Positions 24,834 through 34,210 of a stretch of DNA of 64,000 nucleotides are shown piece after piece; the stretch's first letter is position 1, and the number at the start of each line of letters is the position of its first letter. Origin of the DNA: Plantibacter flavus. GTDB lineage: Bacteria > Actinomycetota > Actinomycetes > Actinomycetales > Microbacteriaceae. A program made the translations under genes and the position numbers. The notes beneath the pieces were generated by a model. The model saw only the letters and a program-made list of their open reading frames with translations. It was not told where the DNA came from and searched no databases. The DNA lies in the NCBI RefSeq assembly GCF_002024505.1, contig NZ_CP019402.1, forward strand, positions 186,001 to 250,000. Direction: 5' to 3'.

Positions 24834-24937
24834 ATCGCCAGTGTTCCAGCCGACCCTCCGCTCCGGCTGGGGGTTGCGCTGCCTCGCGAGTTATCCACAG
24901 ATTCTGGACGAGTATCCAAACTGATGTTTCAGATGAC

Positions 24938-24943
24938 TACAGT
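24938..24943 (+). promoter_or_regulatory. Candidate -10 element of the PKS operon
   Basis: TACAGT fits TANNNT and lies 7 nt before an in-frame GTG at 24950, a leaderless-like geometry. If transcription begins there, the ribosome could instead use the better-supported starts at 25028 or 25085. There is no clear -35 box. Confidence 0.35.
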
Positions 24944-25027
24944 CGGGCTGTGGCGTGCCCACGGGCCGGCTCTCCTCACCGCGAGGCGGCCCCGGGACCT
25001 CGACCCACTCCGTCCGGAGTCGTCGAC

Positions 25028-28000
25028 ATGCCGACCTGCCCCCTCGTTCCATCCGCGATCAACACCCTCGGAGGTTCTCTCGTCGTGCCCGTTCGACCAC
25101 TCGCCATCGTCGGCCTGTCCGCCCGCTTCGGTGGCGCGGCAGACGCCCACCAGTACTGGCACAACATCCTGGCGGCCCGACGCAGCGGCTCCGTCGTCCC
25201 CCGCTCGGGATGGGATCACGCCACCTTCTTCGCGCCGCACGACCCCAGAGCGGTGCATCACGCCTACTCCGACCAGGGTTCCTTCATCGACGACGTCGAG
25301 CAGTTCGCGGCGCGGCACTTTCGCATCCCGCCCAGCCGGGCGCACGCGATGGACCCGCAACATCGCCTGCTCCTCGAGGCTGCACGAGCCGCCTGGATCG
25401 ACGCCGGGTTCGAACGTCGTCGTGTCGACCGGTCGTCCGTCGGCGTGTTCGTCGGGATGGCCGCGAACGACTATCGAGAACTCACCTCCCTCCGCATCCG
25501 GGCGAAGCTCCTCGGCGACGACTCCATCCATCCCGAGCCCGCCGCAGCGGACCTCGGGGCGGCGCTGGCGGCGCGCGTCGCCGGCGTGCGTCCGTTCCAC
25601 GCGTTCTCGATGCCCGGGTGCCTGCCGAACATGGGGCCGGCGCTGGTGAGCAGCACGCTCGACCTCGGCGGCCCGAGCTTCGCCGTCGACGCCGCGTGTT
25701 CCAGCAGCCTCGTCGCGCTGCACCAGGCGGTCGCCGCCATCCGATCCGGGCAGTGCTCGGCGGCGCTCGTCGGCGGCGTCAACCTGAGCCTCGTCCCGGA
25801 TGCGATGGTCGCCTTCTCGCGGATCGGTGCACTGTCACGGAACGGGGTGTGCCGACCGTTCGACGGCGATGCCGACGGATTCCTCCTCGGCGAGGGCGTC
25901 GGCATGATCGTCGTCAAACCGCTCGAGGCCGCCATCGACGACCACGACGACGTCTACGCGGTCATCCGCGGCTCCGGGGTGTCCAACGACGGCCGGGCCG
26001 AAGGGCCGATGACGCCGACGACGGATGGACAGCTGGCGGCGCTCCGCCGGGCCTACGAGGACGCCGCGGCCGACCCCGCCGACCTGGGTGTCGTCGAGGC
26101 GCACGGCACGGCCACCCCGGTGGGCGACCGCACCGAGCTGGAATCGCTGGCGGCGCTGCGTCGTCGCGGGGCATCGCCGCACCGGACCGCCACGGTCACG
26201 GCCGTGAAGGCGCTCGTGGGGCACACGATGGCGGCGGCCGGGATCGCCGGCATCGTCAAAGCGGCACTCATGGCGAGGCATCGGGTCGTCCCCGGGCAGC
26301 CCCGCCTGCGTTCGGAGGCGCACACCGAGGTCCTCCGAGACGGCCGCCTGGCGCTCGCCTCACACGCCATCGACCCGGGCGACGACGGTCTGGGCCTCAT
26401 CGGCGTCAGCTCGTTCGGGTTCGGCGGCACCAACGCGCACGTGGTGCTCGAATCACCGCCGACGCGAGCAGGTCGAGTCCGTCGGCATGCCGCTGGGGGA
26501 CCGGCCGACGAAACGCTCCCGCACCTCCTCGTGTTCTCGGCCGCCGACCCCATGCTGCTCGGCGAGCACCTTCGTGCGGTCCTCGCCGTCCTCGAGGCCG
26601 CCGACGCACCGTCCATCGCCGGCCTCGCACGGACCCTGAGCTCTCGGGCGCTCGCGAGCACCCGGCTGGCGATCGTGTGCCGCACCGCCGCCGAGCTGAT
26701 CTCCGGGCTGTCGGCCGCCTTAGAGCAGCTCGCCCACGGAACCACCGGGGTGATCTCCGCGGACGTCTGCACCGGGGTCCATGTCGACGAGGCCGCTCGG
26801 CGGATCGCCTTCGTCTTCCCCGGGCAGGGCAGCCAGACCCCGCGGATGCAGTCGGACCTCCTCGATCGATTCCCCGCCTTCCGTGCAGCTGCCGAGACAC
26901 TGAACGAGCAGGTGCTCGAGGAGACCGGGGTCGATGTGCTCGCGGCGCTCTCCGCGGCCGACGCCGAGACCCCCTCCGGAATCGACCGTCTGACGTCCAC
27001 CGAGGTCTGCCAACCCGCGCTCGCGGTGACGGCGCTCGCCACCGTGGCGCTGTTGCGCGAGATCGGCGTGGAGCCCGACCTCGTCCTCGGGCACAGCGTC
27101 GGCGAGCTTCCCGCCCTGGCGACGGCGGGCGCGCTCGATGCGCCCGACGCCGTGCGGCTCGCCGCGGTCCGCGGACACCACATGCGATCGGCTGCGACGC
27201 GACCCGGCGACGGCATGACGGCCCTCGGCTGCGACGCCGAGCAGGCCGCAGCGCTCCTCAGCGGCATCGACGACGCGTGGATCGCGGCCGCCAACGATCC
27301 CCGGCAGACGGTGGTGAGTGGAACCGGCGAGGCCCTGCGAGCCGTCGCGGAACGGTGCGTCGAGCACGGGGTGTCGACTCAACCCCTGCGCGTCGCCACC
27401 GGGTTCCACTCGCCTCTGCTCGAGCCGATCCGGCCGGCCCTCGTGGCGGACCTGTCGCGGTTCCGGCCTCGCGCGCCGCAGGTGCAGCTCGTGTCGACCG
27501 TGACGGGCCGCACGGTCGAGACGGGCGAGGAGCTGGGTCGTCAGCTCGAGGAGAACGTCTTCTCCACGGTGCGGTTCCGCGAGGCGATCGAGTCGGCGTC
27601 CGCATCCGACGTCGGCGTCTACGTCCAGATCGGTGGGGGGTCGGCGCTGCTCGGGTCCGTCCGACGCTCCCTGGGTGATGCGCCCGACGTACGCGTCATC
27701 TCAAGCAGCGCGTCGGCGCCGGACGACGCGGCGACCTTCCTCCGACTCATCGGTCGGCTGACGGTGCTGGGCGCCGACCTCGACCTGGCATCGCTCGTCC
27801 CACCAGACACCGCGGGTGTGGCGCTGCCGATCGCGCCGCTGCCGACCGAGCCGTACTGGGTCGTCGGCCCGGACGCCGCCGCCCCGACGACCACGCCCCG
27901 AGAACCCACATCCGAGCCGCACCGACCACCCTCCCCCGTCGAACAGGATCCCCACTCCATGCACCACAACCCTCACGACCTGCCGCCCTCCCCCCTCGCC

Positions 28001-29788
28001 GGACGACCGTCGGCAGGACCGCCGATCCAGCCGCGAGCCGCCGACGCCCAGGCCGACCACCTGCCCGGACTGCTCGCCCTCATGAACCGCCAGCTGAGCC
28101 TCATCGAGGGTTCCGGGCAGGCCGGACGTGCGCCCGCGTCGACGAATCCGTTCCGTTGGTCGACGGAACCCGGCTCGCCGCAGTCGGAGGTGGTCGCCCG
28201 GATGGGCCTCGCAGCCTCCCGGTCGCATCGTGCCGAATACGACGCGGTCATCCTCGGCATGGTGTCGCGCATCAGCGGGTTCCCGCTGGACCTGATCCGG
28301 CCCGACATGCACCTCGTCGAACAGCTCGGATTCGATTCGCTGATGATGCGTGAGCTGATCACCCAGCTGCACACGGAGTGGCCATCGTTGCCGACCCCGG
28401 CGCAGCTCGGCGAGCGCTTCGCCGGACGGCCCACCGTGGAGCAGGTGCTGGACGGCGTCGGCTCCCTGCTGCACCCGTTCGCCGAGGAGCCGCAGCACCG
28501 GCTCCCGCGGGTCGAGACGAACCCGGTGGCTGCCGCTTCTCCGGCGCCGGCCGACCGCCCGACCCGATGGACCGAGGCCGACGCCCGCATCGAGTGCTTC
28601 CCGGAGGCGGTCGCCATGCGGGAACGCCGGCAGCAGACGGACCGCAACCCCTACTTCCTGCTGCATGAGGGGATCATCGACGCCACGACGACGATCGGCG
28701 ACGCCCAGCTCGTGAGCTTCTCCAGTTACAACTACCTCGGTGTCACCGGCCACCCCGTGGTCGCCGAGACGATCGCCGACGCCGTGGCCCGATACGGCAG
28801 CTCGGTGTCCGCCAGCCGGTTCCTGTCCGGTGAGCGCCCGATCCATGCCGAGCTCGAGCAGGAGCTCGCCGACCTCCTCCAGGTGGAGTCGGCGCTCACC
28901 CTGGTGAGCGGCCACGCGACGAACGTGAGCGTCATCGGGCACCTGGTGGAACCGGGCGACCTCATCGTCCACGACAGCCTCGCGCACGACAGCATCATCC
29001 AGGGGGCGAAGCTCTCCGGAGCCACCCGGCGGTCCTTTCCCCACAACGACGTGAACGCGCTCGACGAGCTCCTCAGCGCGATCCGCGGCGGGTTCCGCCG
29101 AGTCCTCATCGTCGTGGAGGGCGTCTACAGCATGGACGGCGACCTCGTGCCGCTCCCGCAGCTCATCGAGCTGAAGCGGCGGCACGGCGCACTGGTGCTC
29201 GTCGATGAGGCGCACAGCATCGGAACGGTGGGCGCCAACGGCGGCGGGGTCGGCGAACACTTCGGTGTCGACCGCTCGGACATCGACCTCTGGTGCGGCA
29301 CGATGTCGAAGTCGCTCGCCGGATGCGGCGGCTACGTCGGTGGCACCGCCGCCGCGATCGACTACCTCAAGTACTCCGTGCCCGGGTTCGTGTACAGCGT
29401 CGGCATCACCCCGGCGAACGCGGCCGCGTCACTCGCCGCCCTCCGGCTCATGCGCGACGAGCCCGAGCGCCTGAGCCGCCTGCGGCAGAACGCCGACCGC
29501 TTCCGCGAGACGGCCCGGGCCGCCGGCATCGACATCGGCGACAGCGCCGACTCGCCCGTCGTGCCGTGCATCGTCGGCAGCTCGGAACGGGCACTCGCCC
29601 TGGCGACGGCGCTCTTCGACCACGGCTTCAGCGTCAACCCGATCCTGTACCCGGCCGTGCCGGACGACCAGGCGCGGCTCCGCTTCTTCATCACCGCGGA
29701 GCACACCACCGAGCAGATCCAGCGGGTCGTGGACATCACGGCATCCGAACTCAACCGCATCACGCACGACATGAAGGTATCCGCATGA
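25028..29788 (+). CDS. Single-module type I PKS fused to alpha-oxoamine synthase (KS-AT-ACP-AOS), RedL C-terminal-like
   Basis: This 1,586-aa megasynthase has four domains. The ketosynthase (residues about 20-470) has catalytic Cys224 in DAACSSS, His359 in EAHGTATP and His399 in VGHTMAAAG. The acyltransferase (about 590-890) has Ser690 in GHSVGE; GFHS at the specificity site suggests malonyl-CoA. The ACP (about 1070-1150) has Ser1104 in GFDSLM for phosphopantetheine. The PLP-dependent alpha-oxoamine synthase (about 1190-1580) has DEAHSIG and Lys1428 in MSKSLAG. No KR, DH, ER or thioesterase is present. The order predicts one malonyl extension of an acyl starter, then release by decarboxylative condensation with an amino acid, as known for RedL in undecylprodigiosin synthesis. 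Start candidates are ATG 25028 (GGAG, 8 nt), GTG 25085 (GGAGG, 10 nt, nearest to the KS fold) and GTG 24950. It is the first gene of the operon and overlaps the exporter gene by ATGA. Confidence 0.93.
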   Translation: MPTCPLVPSAINTLGGSLVVPVRPLAIVGLSARFGGAADAHQYWHNILAARRSGSVVPRSGWDHATFFAPHDPRAVHHAYSDQGSFIDDVEQFAARHFRIPPSRAHAMDPQHRLLLEAARAAWIDAGFERRRVDRSSVGVFVGMAANDYRELTSLRIRAKLLGDDSIHPEPAAADLGAALAARVAGVRPFHAFSMPGCLPNMGPALVSSTLDLGGPSFAVDAACSSSLVALHQAVAAIRSGQCSAALVGGVNLSLVPDAMVAFSRIGALSRNGVCRPFDGDADGFLLGEGVGMIVVKPLEAAIDDHDDVYAVIRGSGVSNDGRAEGPMTPTTDGQLAALRRAYEDAAADPADLGVVEAHGTATPVGDRTELESLAALRRRGASPHRTATVTAVKALVGHTMAAAGIAGIVKAALMARHRVVPGQPRLRSEAHTEVLRDGRLALASHAIDPGDDGLGLIGVSSFGFGGTNAHVVLESPPTRAGRVRRHAAGGPADETLPHLLVFSAADPMLLGEHLRAVLAVLEAADAPSIAGLARTLSSRALASTRLAIVCRTAAELISGLSAALEQLAHGTTGVISADVCTGVHVDEAARRIAFVFPGQGSQTPRMQSDLLDRFPAFRAAAETLNEQVLEETGVDVLAALSAADAETPSGIDRLTSTEVCQPALAVTALATVALLREIGVEPDLVLGHSVGELPALATAGALDAPDAVRLAAVRGHHMRSAATRPGDGMTALGCDAEQAAALLSGIDDAWIAAANDPRQTVVSGTGEALRAVAERCVEHGVSTQPLRVATGFHSPLLEPIRPALVADLSRFRPRAPQVQLVSTVTGRTVETGEELGRQLEENVFSTVRFREAIESASASDVGVYVQIGGGSALLGSVRRSLGDAPDVRVISSSASAPDDAATFLRLIGRLTVLGADLDLASLVPPDTAGVALPIAPLPTEPYWVVGPDAAAPTTTPREPTSEPHRPPSPVEQDPHSMHHNPHDLPPSPLAGRPSAGPPIQPRAADAQADHLPGLLALMNRQLSLIEGSGQAGRAPASTNPFRWSTEPGSPQSEVVARMGLAASRSHRAEYDAVILGMVSRISGFPLDLIRPDMHLVEQLGFDSLMMRELITQLHTEWPSLPTPAQLGERFAGRPTVEQVLDGVGSLLHPFAEEPQHRLPRVETNPVAAASPAPADRPTRWTEADARIECFPEAVAMRERRQQTDRNPYFLLHEGIIDATTTIGDAQLVSFSSYNYLGVTGHPVVAETIADAVARYGSSVSASRFLSGERPIHAELEQELADLLQVESALTLVSGHATNVSVIGHLVEPGDLIVHDSLAHDSIIQGAKLSGATRRSFPHNDVNALDELLSAIRGGFRRVLIVVEGVYSMDGDLVPLPQLIELKRRHGALVLVDEAHSIGTVGANGGGVGEHFGVDRSDIDLWCGTMSKSLAGCGGYVGGTAAAIDYLKYSVPGFVYSVGITPANAAASLAALRLMRDEPERLSRLRQNADRFRETARAAGIDIGDSADSPVVPCIVGSSERALALATALFDHGFSVNPILYPAVPDDQARLRFFITAEHTTEQIQRVVDITASELNRITHDMKVSA

Positions 29789-31941
29789 CGAACCACTCCA
29801 GAACGACACCCAGACGACGGGCGGTGATCACGCTCCTGATCGGCCTGGTGTTCGCGATCGTGGCGGGCATCGCGGGGGCCGACGTCCTCGACAACCTCAA
29901 GACGGGCGGGTTCGACGACCCGCAGTCCGAATCCGTGGCCGCAGCGGACGTGCTCGCCGACCGGTTCCCGGGCAGCGACCCGAAACTCCTCCTCGTCGTG
30001 GACGTCTCCGACGGACTCGACAGCGCCGCCGGCAGGGAGGCGCTCGACGACATCGTCGGTGCTGTGGACGACGTGGACGGCGCCAGCGTCACCGGCTCCT
30101 ACGCCGACTCGGAGCAGCTGCGGAGCGGCACCGACCGCGGCGTCGTGCTCGTGGCGCTCGCCGGAGACGAGGACACCGTGCAGCGCGCGACCACCGCGCT
30201 CCGCGGGACGATCACCGACGAGGTGACGTCGGCCACGGTCCGGTTCGGTGGCATCGCGGGGATCAACGACGACCTCAACGCGCAGGTCAAGACGGACATC
30301 ATCGTGGCGGAGACGATCGCCATCCCGATCACCCTCGTGCTGCTGTTCTTCGCGTTCCGCGGAGTGGTGGCTGCTCTGCTGCCCGTCGGCGTCGCGGGCG
30401 TCACGATCCTCGGATCCCTCGGCCTGCTGAACGTGGTTGCACAGCTCACCTCGGTCTCCCTGTTCGCGGTCAACCTCGTCACCGCATTGGGCCTCGGACT
30501 CGCCATCGACTACTGCCTGCTGTTCCTCACCCGCTATCGGGACGAACGCGCGGGTGGAGCCACCGACGAGGAGGCGTTGCGGATCGCTCGGCGGACGACC
30601 GGCCGGACCATCGTGTTCAGCGGCGTCGTCGTCGCCGCGGCGCTCGCCACGCTGATGCTGTTCGACCAGTACTTCCTGCGCTCGTTCGCCATCGCGGGAC
30701 TCGTCATCGTGGCCTGCTCCGTGGTGGGCGCGGTCGTCCTGCTGCCCGCAGCCCTCACCCTCCTGGGTCGCAGGATCGACTGGGGCCGACTGCGCTCCCG
30801 CCGCCCGGCCGGGGCCGAGGGCCGGTTCTGGTACCGGGTGGGCGACCACGCGTATCGCCGTCCGTGGTCGGCGGTGCCCGTGATCGCGCTGCTCATCGCC
30901 ATGGCCGCGCCATTTGCGCACGCCGAGTTCGGGGTGCCCGACGAACGAGTGCTCCCCGCCGGCGCCGAGAGTCGTGTCGTGGCGGACATCATGCGGTCCG
31001 ACTTCGACGTCGCCGAGGCGGACGCCGTCTCCGTCGTCACCGAGGACTGGGCGGGGACGGACCGCGAGCTCGACGAGTACGCCGCCGAACTCTCCTCGAT
31101 CACGGGCGTCGAGGCCGTCACGACGTCCCTCGGCAGCTTCGTCGACGGACGCCTCGTGGCTCCGGCCGACGCGCGGACGGAGCAGCACTTCCGCGACGGT
31201 TCGGCGCTCTGGCTGCAGGTTGCAACCGACGTCGTCCCGTACTCGCCCGAGGGCTCGGAGCTCGTCCGCGACGTCCGTGCGGTGGACCCTGGAGCCGCCT
31301 CGACCGTCCTGGTCGGTGGCCTCGCGGCGCAGATGATCGACATCGGTGACTCCATCTCGGCGCGTCTGCCGTTCGCCGCCGCGGCCATCGCGCTCATGAC
31401 GCTGATCATCCTCTTCCTGTTCACGGGGAGCGTGCTGCTCCCGATCAAGGCGCTGGTGCTGAACGTGGTCGGTCTGGTCGGCATCCTGGGCGTCATCGTG
31501 TTCCTCTTCCAGGACGGCAACCTGTCGGACGTGCTCGGCTTCACCCCGTCACCCATCGCCATCTCGATCCCGATCCTGCTGTTCTGCATCGCCTTCGGGC
31601 TCTCGATGGACTACGAGGTGTTCCTCCTCGCTCGGATCCAGGAACGCGTCCGTGCCACGGGCGATCTCGCGGAGGCGGTGCGGAGCGGACTCGGCGCGAG
31701 CGGTCCGATCATCACGGCCGCAGCGGCGATCCTCGCGGTGTCGTTCTTCGCCATGGCGACCTCCGGAGTGTCGATCATCAAGATGCTCGGCATCGGAACC
31801 GGTATCGCGATCCTCATCGACGCCATCCTGATCCGCGGCGTGCTCGTCCCGGTCTTCATGCGCGTCGCCGGGCGATACAACTGGTGGGCGCCGCGGTGGC
31901 TCGCGGCGATCCATCGCCGCATCGGGATCACGGAGGACTGA
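29785..31941 (+). CDS. MMPL/RND family transporter (putative product exporter)
   Basis: This 718-aa membrane protein has the MMPL layout: a first span at residues about 13-35, a large extracellular loop, a block of spans around residues 170-345, a second loop, then a second block around residues 520-700. GLAIDYCLLFLTRYRDE and GLSMDYEVFLLARIQE are the paired aspartate-bearing motifs of proton-driven RND/MMPL pumps. MMPL proteins in actinobacteria commonly export lipids made by linked PKS genes. The start overlaps the PKS stop (ATGA) and the stop abuts the next ATG, so export of the PKS-AOS product is the natural inference. Confidence 0.93.
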   Translation: MTNHSRTTPRRRAVITLLIGLVFAIVAGIAGADVLDNLKTGGFDDPQSESVAAADVLADRFPGSDPKLLLVVDVSDGLDSAAGREALDDIVGAVDDVDGASVTGSYADSEQLRSGTDRGVVLVALAGDEDTVQRATTALRGTITDEVTSATVRFGGIAGINDDLNAQVKTDIIVAETIAIPITLVLLFFAFRGVVAALLPVGVAGVTILGSLGLLNVVAQLTSVSLFAVNLVTALGLGLAIDYCLLFLTRYRDERAGGATDEEALRIARRTTGRTIVFSGVVVAAALATLMLFDQYFLRSFAIAGLVIVACSVVGAVVLLPAALTLLGRRIDWGRLRSRRPAGAEGRFWYRVGDHAYRRPWSAVPVIALLIAMAAPFAHAEFGVPDERVLPAGAESRVVADIMRSDFDVAEADAVSVVTEDWAGTDRELDEYAAELSSITGVEAVTTSLGSFVDGRLVAPADARTEQHFRDGSALWLQVATDVVPYSPEGSELVRDVRAVDPGAASTVLVGGLAAQMIDIGDSISARLPFAAAAIALMTLIILFLFTGSVLLPIKALVLNVVGLVGILGVIVFLFQDGNLSDVLGFTPSPIAISIPILLFCIAFGLSMDYEVFLLARIQERVRATGDLAEAVRSGLGASGPIITAAAAILAVSFFAMATSGVSIIKMLGIGTGIAILIDAILIRGVLVPVFMRVAGRYNWWAPRWLAAIHRRIGITED

Positions 31942-32949
31942 ATGGACTCGCGGTTCAGCGGCCTGTCGGCCGATGACGACCTCTCGGCGCTCGTGTCCGA
32001 GGCGGCTCGCGCGGCGAACGCCCACAACACGCAGCCGTGGGTCGTGGACCCTCAGGGCGACGAACTCGTCCTCCGCCGGGATCGCACTCGCACCCTCGGC
32101 GCGAGCGATCCGCGAGGACGCGACACGATGTTGTCGTTCGGGGCGTTCGTCGAGTCACTCCTCATCTGTGCGGCCTCCGCCGGTGTCGGACTGCGCTTCG
32201 AGGCTGCAACCGGCGGTGACGCGGAGACCGATGAGGTCGGCCGGTTCTCGCGCCACCCGGAGGGCTACCAGACGAGGTTCTCCTCGGCGGACGTCCGTGG
32301 ACGACGCGTCTGGCGAGGGCGATGGCGGGACGGCGCTCCCGGACCGGATCTCCTCCAGGAGGCCGCGGTGGAGGCGGAGCGCAGGGGTTTCCGGCTCGTC
32401 TCCATGCCGACCCGGGACGCGCGCCCGATCCTCGTGCGCGCCAACCGGTGGTTCTTCGGCGAGCAGGCGATCGTCGCCGAGCTCGATCAGTGGACCAGGC
32501 TCTCACCAGGACATCCGCGGTACGACGAGGACGGCCTCAACGACGCGATGCTCGTGCTGTCGAAGGTCGAACGAGCCGGCCTGCGGACGCTGATCAGCCC
32601 GCGGGTGTTCCGCGCGCTTCGCGGCGTCGGGCTGCCCGGGTTGTTGGCGAGGATGTCGGCCTCCGCGACCCAGGGCTCCGGCACCGTCCTCGGTGTCGTC
32701 GGCCCCGCCGGGGCTCGGCATGAACTCGCCGCGGGGCGACTGCTCACCCGGCTCTGGCTCGGCTTCCAGCGCAACGGCCTGTACGTGCACCCGCAGAGCG
32801 CGCCGCTCGACTGTCCTGAGAGCCGGGTCATGCTCGACGAACGCTGGAACGTCGCCCGGGACGAGCAGCTCGTCGCCTGGTTCCGGGTCGGCGTCCCCGC
32901 CTCCGACCCCGCGGCGCGCGTGGCGTCCCCGCGTCGGTCGGGTGGCTGA
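31942..32949 (+). CDS. Acg-type nitroreductase-family FMN protein
   Basis: This 335-aa protein resembles the Acg family, a duplicated nitroreductase fold found in actinobacteria. ARAANAHNTQPWVV near residue 25 is the FMN-site motif typical of that group, and the C-terminal GVGPAGARHELAAGRLL, RLWLGFQRNGLYVHPQS stretch matches the second half. The start is fixed by direct abutment to the exporter stop; GGAGG lies about 3-8 nt upstream. In this operon it may oxidise or reduce the PKS-AOS product, for example a pyrroline ring. That is inference, because many Acg proteins only sequester flavin. Confidence 0.82.
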   Translation: MDSRFSGLSADDDLSALVSEAARAANAHNTQPWVVDPQGDELVLRRDRTRTLGASDPRGRDTMLSFGAFVESLLICAASAGVGLRFEAATGGDAETDEVGRFSRHPEGYQTRFSSADVRGRRVWRGRWRDGAPGPDLLQEAAVEAERRGFRLVSMPTRDARPILVRANRWFFGEQAIVAELDQWTRLSPGHPRYDEDGLNDAMLVLSKVERAGLRTLISPRVFRALRGVGLPGLLARMSASATQGSGTVLGVVGPAGARHELAAGRLLTRLWLGFQRNGLYVHPQSAPLDCPESRVMLDERWNVARDEQLVAWFRVGVPASDPAARVASPRRSGG

Positions 32950-34180
32950 ATCCGCAGCCGCGGTGGTCGACGCTCTCCGGATGCAGGTGCCGCCGGGCGT
33001 CGTCGTCTCGGCGTCCGTCGGCACCGCATCCGGGCCGTTCCGGGCCCGTCCGACCTCGGCTGGTCGCAGCGCCGAATCCGACTCGGCGCGCGACTGCGCC
33101 AGGGCGGCACTCGCGATGCTCGGCCAGCGCTCCACGGACATCCCGACGGGGGAGGGCGGGCAACCGGTCTGGCCGGCCGGCTTCGTCGGGAGTCTCTCGC
33201 ACTGCCCCGGTTTCACGATCGCAGCCGTCGGTCGCGTCGGCGTCGCGAGCGCCATCGGGATCGACGTCGAGGTGCACCGGCCCATCCGTCCCGCCGTCGC
33301 GGCGACGATCGTCTGCGGGAGTGAGGCGTCCATGCTCGCGCGACTCGCCTCGAGCCATCCGGCCGTCGCGTGGGGCGCCGTGCTGTGGAGCGTCAAGGAG
33401 AGCGTCTTCAAGGCGTGGTACCCGCTCACCGGGCGATGGGTCGACTACACCTCATGTGAGGTGGTGATCCACCCGGATCGGGGCTCGTTCGACGCACGGG
33501 TCGTCGCGCCGGCCGGCCCGACCACGCCGCGCACCTTTGCCGGCCGATGGTCGGTGGTGGGCACCCACCTCTGCAGCGTCGTCATCGTTCCGGTCTCGCG
33601 GCGACAGGACGGGGACCGGCTGATCCGGTCCACGCGGGTACCGTTGAGGACGATGTCGGAGACCGCAGGAGGAGGGGCCATGCCGGACGAGGAACAGACG
33701 ACGACCGACTGGCGCGCAGTGGCCGCCGCCCTCGCGAACGACGACACCCGGACGGTGTACGCACAACTCGCCCTCGGGCAGGAGCCCGATCTGGGCGCCA
33801 CCCAGCGTGCTGTGCGACGGGCCGAGCAGAGCGTCCAGACGTTGTCTCGGGCGGGCCTGCTGGACGACGGCGGGCGTGTCTCGGGCGAGGTGTTCCGAGA
33901 CCTTCTCGCAGCCGCCGCACCGCCGAAGCGCGAAGGAATCGACCGCTTCCTGGTCGACGGTCGGATCGTGCAGTACCCGTCGAATCCCGACGAGCGGCAG
34001 GCGCTGTTACAGCGGGTCGCGGCATCAGCGCTCCAGCCGGACGAGGTGGTCGACGAAGCTGAGATCAACGAGCGGTTGTCCGCGTTCCACGACGACGTCG
34101 CGGTACTTCGGCGGTACCTCGTGGACGCACAGCTCGTCGAGCGCACGCGCTCGGGGACCGAGTACGCGCTCGTCACCTGA
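32942..34180 (+). CDS. 4'-phosphopantetheinyl transferase (Sfp/EntD type) in frame with a C-terminal DUF2087 domain
   Basis: The first 220 residues form a Sfp-superfamily enzyme that loads the phosphopantetheine arm onto carrier proteins: GSLSHCPGF, the metal-binding AIGIDVE and WSVKESVFK are all present. The ACP of the adjacent PKS is the likely target. The frame then runs without a stop into a segment (from about residue 247) matching DUF2087 regulators, including GIDRFLVDGRIVQYPSNPDERQALL. GTG 32942 overlaps the previous stop by 8 bp; ATG 32981 is an alternative. An AGGAGG before ATG 33680 suggests the DUF2087 part may also be made separately (166 aa). A one-base overcall would also produce this fusion, since the next frame stops at 33621. 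Confidence 0.82.
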   Translation: MAESAAAVVDALRMQVPPGVVVSASVGTASGPFRARPTSAGRSAESDSARDCARAALAMLGQRSTDIPTGEGGQPVWPAGFVGSLSHCPGFTIAAVGRVGVASAIGIDVEVHRPIRPAVAATIVCGSEASMLARLASSHPAVAWGAVLWSVKESVFKAWYPLTGRWVDYTSCEVVIHPDRGSFDARVVAPAGPTTPRTFAGRWSVVGTHLCSVVIVPVSRRQDGDRLIRSTRVPLRTMSETAGGGAMPDEEQTTTDWRAVAAALANDDTRTVYAQLALGQEPDLGATQRAVRRAEQSVQTLSRAGLLDDGGRVSGEVFRDLLAAAAPPKREGIDRFLVDGRIVQYPSNPDERQALLQRVAASALQPDEVVDEAEINERLSAFHDDVAVLRRYLVDAQLVERTRSGTEYALVT

Positions 34181-34188
34181 GTCAGCCG

Positions 34189-34210
34189 CCCTTCGACAGG
34201 CTCAGGGACC
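34189..34210. repeat. CTTCGACAGGCTCAG repeat with degenerate direct copies
   Basis: One full copy begins 9 bp after the PPTase-DUF2087 stop. It is followed by shortened direct repeats of GAGGCTCAG plus GGGAGCGGGG up to about 34250. The array lies between convergent genes. Confidence 0.6.

Follow-up and report, generated by a model that had tools for sequence, protein, structure and literature searches.

What is made by a compact gene cassette in the actinobacterium Plantibacter flavus that sets a polyketide synthase (PKS) ending in an alpha-oxoamine synthase (AOS) domain beside an exporter, a flavoprotein and a phosphopantetheinyl transferase (PPTase)? The cassette lies within a 64,000-nucleotide stretch of contig NZ_CP019402.1 (positions 186,001 to 250,000 of the forward strand; referred to here as the window), the source genome being one contig of 4.21 Mb. 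Our preferred answer, to which we give a probability of roughly 55%, is a small aminoketone or pyrrole lipid of acyl origin that the cassette both makes and exports, with L-serine as the most likely amino acid substrate, a RedV-like oxidation and export by a pump of the MMPL family. Judged from its sequence and that of its relatives, the cassette itself is a genuine gene set, intact and with partners that recur.

By Pfam, the 1,586 amino acid PKS comprises a ketosynthase (KS; N, C and extension families), an acyltransferase (AT), an acyl carrier protein (ACP) and an Aminotran_1_2 domain corresponding to the AOS, bearing out the RedL-like KS-AT-ACP-AOS architecture described in the initial annotation of this DNA. 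The catalytic residues listed there (C224, H359, H399, S690, S1104 and K1428) are all at the positions given in a protein of the length given, and Pfam agrees that reductive domains and a thioesterase are absent (no ketoreductase, dehydratase, enoylreductase or thioesterase match). The ACP match is weak, at 20.9 bits against a Pfam cut-off of 20.8. The AT carries GHSVGE together with GFHSP (mostly xAFHSP in relatives), a signature that we take to be of the malonyl type. A search of nr gave 7,792 hits; among 120 listed relatives, simple patterns match 110 for the KS Cys, 115 for the AT His and 119 for the AOS stacking His. Translation most plausibly begins at the ATG at 25028 and stops at 29788; the corresponding entry in nr, from a Plantibacter strain, is 1,585 amino acids long. 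As to the starter, no match to the C-terminal domain of fatty-acyl-AMP ligases (FAAL) was found in the 4.2-Mb genome, whereas the Bacillus subtilis and Corynebacterium glutamicum control genomes both gave matches, and a FAAL encoded elsewhere in the genome was rejected as the loader on this ground. KS-like and AT-like stretches lying 1.6 kb apart elsewhere in the genome are presumably FabF and FabD. Together, these two observations suggest that the starter is likely to be an acyl-ACP from fatty acid synthesis.

The genes are tightly coupled, as had been proposed for four of them: the MMPL gene overlaps the PKS stop codon (ATGA), the flavoprotein gene starts at the base directly after the MMPL stop and the GTG start of the PPTase gene (32942) overlaps the flavoprotein stop. 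The description of a four-gene set with its own exporter and PPTase needs amending in one respect only, in that the last open reading frame (ORF) joins two proteins, a PPTase and a DUF2087 protein: in the source genome the PPTase has no stop near 33612 and reads on into the DUF2087 protein in the same frame. We considered and rejected the idea of a new fusion protein, since relatives keep the two apart, with different frames at L005, L006 and L124 and no DUF2087 gene at L007. The DUF2087 start has its own purine-rich stretch resembling a ribosome-binding site.

Two further Plantibacter genomes (G004 and G005) define the borders of the cassette. In both, the flanking dienelactone-hydrolase and GH20 genes adjoin and the cassette is wholly missing, the alignment of the window breaking at 24881 and resuming at 34188, which indicates that the genes have been gained or lost as a single 9.3-kb unit. 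The PKS is present in five of the seven genomes of the genus, that of the source included. Across the Microbacteriaceae the ACP-AOS part was found in four of 249 genomes and one of 85 genera, Plantibacter only (E<=1e-70). The initial suggestion of novelty in this group thus stands for the family among the genera sampled but not for the PKS type, which is common in Streptomyces. Against four relatives, the ratio of non-synonymous to synonymous substitution (dN/dS) is 0.22-0.26 for the PKS, 0.09-0.16 for the MMPL protein, 0.33-0.40 for the flavoprotein and 0.38-0.56 for the PPTase, above that of the flanking genes (0-0.10) yet below 1, and the aligned cassette frames are free of stops in all five genomes.

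The AOS domain holds a clue to the amino acid used. Ser1263 aligns with Val79 of ThAOS, a position reported to influence amino acid choice and occupied by Val in KBL, Ser in SPT and Escherichia coli AONS, Thr in Rhodobacter capsulatus ALAS and Leu in Alb29 (PMC11906848). The prodiginine enzymes RedL and RedN are described as using glycine and serine, respectively (PMC11188435). At this position RedL has Thr (5/5) and RedN has Ser (4/4), the genome's own KBL-like protein has Val, and the 120 listed nr relatives have Ser in 111 cases and Ala in seven, two being unparsed. Glycine, the amino acid put forward initially, is therefore less likely than serine, because the window has Ser where RedL has Thr and the serine-using RedN has Ser; the residue favours serine or alanine over glycine, as a lean.

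Phylogeny likewise sets the protein apart from RedL. Five RedL AOS domains form a clade of their own (support 100/100) that excludes the window AOS, and RedN forms a separate, distant clade; identities are 48-53% to RedL and 37-39% to RedN. Within the PKS-AOS clade the trees give the window no firm place: the 41-row group has support of 85/93, and the second tree is a polytomy. The PKS shares with RedL its domain order and the logic of malonyl extension followed by AOS release but lacks the N-terminal A-ACP loading pair. The earlier view of it as the C-terminal half of RedL standing alone is hard to keep, given its place in the tree and Ser1263; it is more likely a RedL-like synthase of a separate lineage. 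Its setting is not that of a prodiginine pathway, as had been recognised: a tblastn search with RedH finds nothing in the window and RedN matches only the ACP-AOS of the PKS itself, so that neither a RedH-like gene nor a second AOS is seen. Of the red proteins used as queries, RedV and RedU alone have matches in the window outside the PKS, both of them weak.

The RedV match concerns the flavoprotein. Its AlphaFold2 model (pLDDT 84.5) finds MsAcg (2YMV) as the best fold in the PDB (TM 0.70, 19% identity), 2YMV also being its sole PDB sequence match, and on this model the protein is of the Acg-type fold. Compared with four RedV-position proteins (two scored by NCBIfam, the other two matching these by tblastn at 42-43%), the window flavoprotein family gives a profile probability of 99.3% over 319 columns at 22% identity. 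Those four come from the red clusters of G443, G609, G859 and G691, each of which has an Acg-family gene upstream at the RedV place; we take this gene to be redV by the Streptomyces coelicolor gene order. A RedU-like PPTase lies beside the Acg-family gene in three of the four readable clusters, and the partial DNA of a further red cluster (G834) has no Acg-family gene. RedV (PigM) is reported to oxidise the hydroxymethyl group of the serine-derived bipyrrole HBM to an aldehyde (PMC11188435), and a serine-using AOS and a RedV-like oxidase would therefore make a coherent pair. As with RedN (PigH) and RedV, which serve to form HBM and then HBC, Ser at the specificity position is accompanied by an Acg-family oxidase, but the product in the present case would be an alkyl monopyrrole.

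The exporter is MmpL3-like. Its best solved relatives are MmpL3 structures, which score 287 bits where MmpL4/5 reach no more than 95, and it carries both Asp-Tyr pairs. It is not MmpL3 itself, since it falls far below the cut-off of the NCBIfam MmpL3 equivalog NF052608 (329.6 bits against 1400). The PPTase similarly scores 108 bits against a cut-off of 365 for NCBIfam PptT.

How might these proteins work together? The PPTase would arm the ACP and the KS would take a fatty acyl group straight from fatty acid synthesis, without a FAAL. The AT would load malonyl and a single condensation would give a beta-ketoacyl-ACP, which should stay as such, reducing domains being absent from the PKS. Release would then fall to the AOS, which would condense the chain with an amino acid under decarboxylation, L-serine being the first candidate and L-alanine the second; the logic of one starter, one malonyl and AOS release was also that of the initial annotation and is likely. 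The resulting amino-diketone could close to a 2-alkyl-4-hydroxypyrrole (4-keto-pyrroline), which with serine as the substrate would carry a 5-hydroxymethyl group. The flavoprotein would oxidise this ring product, much as RedV acts on HBM, to an alkyl-hydroxypyrrole carbaldehyde, and the MmpL3-like pump would carry the product out. In this most specific form, a stripped-down prodiginine logic outside the red clusters that unites a RedL-type synthase, RedN-like serine choice, a RedV-type oxidase, a RedU-type PPTase and an MmpL3-like pump in one cassette to export an alkyl-hydroxypyrrole carbaldehyde, the scheme is tentative and less likely than not.

Evidence that these genes belong together comes from other genomes. 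A class-wide search (E<=1e-90) gave matches in 18 of 394 genomes and nine of 138 genera, and a search of one Streptomyces-like genus, covering 295 genomes, gave them in 40 (E<=1e-130), RedL and AT-less ACP-AOS proteins being counted in both. The surroundings of all 19 class-search places besides the window's own were compared and, with these, 37 of the 45 genus-search places. The loci were sorted into groups (a) to (f) after the AOS tree and domain content had been viewed, so the fractions that follow are descriptive rather than a blind test. In group (a), 19 Streptomyces-like KS-AT-ACP-AOS loci, an MMPL gene is present at 15 and a PPTase gene at 13 (at L089 the KS and AT are missing from the DNA compared). 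Ten clusters with the order MMPL, KS-AT-ACP-AOS, PPTase (L037, L084, L085, L087, L091, L093, L094, L097, L100 and L101) have the same PKS, exporter and PPTase as the window, their AOS domains being 62-67% identical to its own, but no Acg flavoprotein was found in them, and in many a gene for a PAS-SpoIIE phosphatase follows. Group (b), 14 KS-ACP-AOS loci without an AT beside the AOS (in one, an AT match lies about 9 kb off), has MMPL at two and PPTase at none. Group (c) (L039, L040, L043, L048 and L099) has an Acg gene at four of five loci, MMPL at three and a PPTase match at none; within the class sample, PKS-MMPL-Acg recurs at L048 and PKS-Acg at L039. Group (d) loci encode a fatty-acyl-AMP ligase (L041, L042 and L047, the last with weak MMPL pieces also, E 5e-14) or an AMP-binding/aldehyde-dehydrogenase protein (L038). 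Group (e) consists of red clusters (L049, L050, L135, L138 and L141) and group (f) of L051-L055, of which L053-L055 have a PKS ORF of 2,100-2,230 amino acids with the AOS outside it. No MMPL gene was found in the DNA compared of L038, L039, L040, L041 or L042. The flavoprotein offers a cleaner test of linkage, for both of its matches in the 295 genomes (E<=1e-30; L043 and L099) lie beside a PKS-AOS and an MMPL gene. A metagenomic PKS with 63% identity is recorded on a contig of 10,267 bases, as is a flavoprotein with 58% identity, and the contig is probably one and the same. The initial annotation had asked whether the neighbours are conserved with the PKS in related genomes; they recur with it.

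A number of observations weigh against the proposed serine-derived, oxidised and exported product. The window AOS is closer to RedL than to RedN. The four Acg-group AOS rows outside Plantibacter (L039, L040, L043 and L099) have Ala at the specificity position. E. coli AONS is an alanine user. It shares Ser at this position with the window, and the V79S variant of ThAOS still accepts glycine (PMC11906848); given this variant and the four Ala rows, Ser1263 gives a lean rather than proof. The flavoprotein scores 128.9 bits on NF047509, under the cut-off of 199, as do the two scored RedV-position proteins (133 and 114 bits), and the main Streptomyces-like clade yielded no Acg gene at any of its 19 loci, which places the oxidation outside the common core. 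By analogy, the flavoprotein may desaturate its substrate instead, since N-acyl amino acids are desaturated in the reactions reported for the flavin-dependent oxidases TyzC and OxzB (PMC10404671). Like the cassette, these systems use an Acg-type oxidase of the nitroreductase superfamily in a lipid pathway, with tyz near mmpL9, but their partners are described as ThiF-type enzymes acting with N-acyl amino acid substrates and no PKS-AOS (PMC10404671). Finally, the loci L038, L041 and L042 lack the exporter in the DNA compared.

The likeliest of the competing explanations, though improbable, is that glycine is used as in RedL to give a plain 2-alkyl-4-keto-pyrroline or aminoketone, which would suit the shared domain order and the RedL-window AOS identity but not the residue difference at position 1263 or the exclusion of the window from the RedL clade. 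Next comes the somewhat more doubtful idea that the AOS is a serine palmitoyltransferase acting on a saturated acyl chain to give a sphingoid base, with reduction supplied elsewhere. Serine palmitoyltransferase 3A2B is indeed the best solved relative of the window AOS, and the SgaA/SgaB pair of Pseudomonas fluorescens MYb115 is reported to couple a PKS with a serine-using AOS to make a lipid (PMC12134224). Ser1263 is compatible with such serine use, as a single residue. The Pseudomonas genes are separate, however, and are described as making long-chain sphinganines with a proposed ketosphinganine reductase, SgaC, in an account whose sections 8 and 9 mention neither an MMPL protein nor a flavoprotein (PMC12134224). 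The window PKS has no reducing domain with which to build a saturated chain, no dehydrogenase-type reductase is found among the cassette genes, and L053-L055, with their longer PKS ORFs and separate AOS, belong to a different AOS clade.

In a Pks13-like reading, two fatty acyl chains would undergo Claisen condensation and leave the AOS as a branched envelope lipid, to be carried by an MmpL3-like pump. This would fit the exporter, and among NCBIfam models Pks13 ranks second for the PKS. That match is weak (440 bits against a cut-off of 2100; the best, PKS_plus_SDR, gives 614 against 1740) and the AT signature is of the malonyl type, on which grounds we rejected it as very unlikely. Pks13 works with a FAAL, and the genome has no FAAL C-terminal domain. 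That the cassette is a decaying or idle gene set without present function seems scarcely credible: it is absent from two of seven Plantibacter genomes, the PPTase dN/dS reaches 0.56 and the PPTase stop has been lost, but the frames are open in five genomes, the catalytic residues are intact and dN/dS is below 1 throughout.

Should the proposed pyrrole product be correct, a new class would be added to the pyrrole lipids of bacteria. We found no product for the MMPL/PPTase-linked PKS-AOS type in the openly licensed literature searched, and none of the seven Aminotran_1_2 proteins tabled in a 2013 survey of assembly-line pyridoxal phosphate domains is a free-standing KS-AT-ACP-AOS (PMC3870968). 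More broadly, whether an AOS has Ser or Thr at this one position may tell pyrrole-forming synthases that use serine from those that use glycine, and the oxidation of AOS products may be a role of Acg-family flavoproteins. With its five genes, the cassette is of a size that allows transfer in one piece into a laboratory host.

Features of the cassette, in window coordinates
Feature	Position	Strand	Basis or remark
Cassette, 9.3 kb	24882..34187	+	Between dienelactone-hydrolase gene and GH20 gene
KS-AT-ACP-AOS polyketide synthase, 1,586 aa	25028..29788	+	Pfam, active sites
KS query piece	25088-26707	+	
AT query piece	26798-27877	+	
ACP query piece	28208-28477	+	
AOS query piece	28613-29785	+	
Codon of Ser1263, AOS amino acid specificity position (ThAOS V79)	28814..28816	+	Alignments; role from PMC11906848
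MMPL exporter, 718 aa, MmpL3-like	29785..31941	+	Pfam MMPL, 258 bits
Acg-family flavin-dependent oxidase (RedV-like)	31942..32949	+	NF047509, AlphaFold2 fold, profile match
Sfp/PptT-type PPTase	32942..33612	+	Pfam 4PPT_N and ACPS; end approximate, extent from relatives
DUF2087 protein, 166 aa	33680..34180	+	Pfam PF09860, 69 bits; in frame with PPTase in source genome

Several minor observations concern the related loci. The PAS-SpoIIE phosphatase gene that follows the PKS or PPTase gene at L084, L085, L087, L089-L094, L096 and L098, and also at L037 and L044, is perhaps a regulator of the group (a) loci. The AT-less group (b) loci (L045, L046 and L102-L113, all Streptomyces-like) show a TetR match in 11 of the 12 tested, and their synthases would form an orphan family needing an AT in trans. 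MMPL genes near L053 and L055 raise the possibility of Sga-like lipid pathways in actinobacteria.

At the cassette itself, no direct repeats of at least 22 nt were found between 23950 and 34400, and no consensus promoters or terminators scored above shuffled sequences, a comparison that is uninformative at such G+C content. A 21-base element, CCTTCGACAGGCTCAGGGACC, has nine copies across the window when up to two mismatches are allowed, where none is expected, and one copy lies at 34190-34210, just beyond the right border of the cassette.

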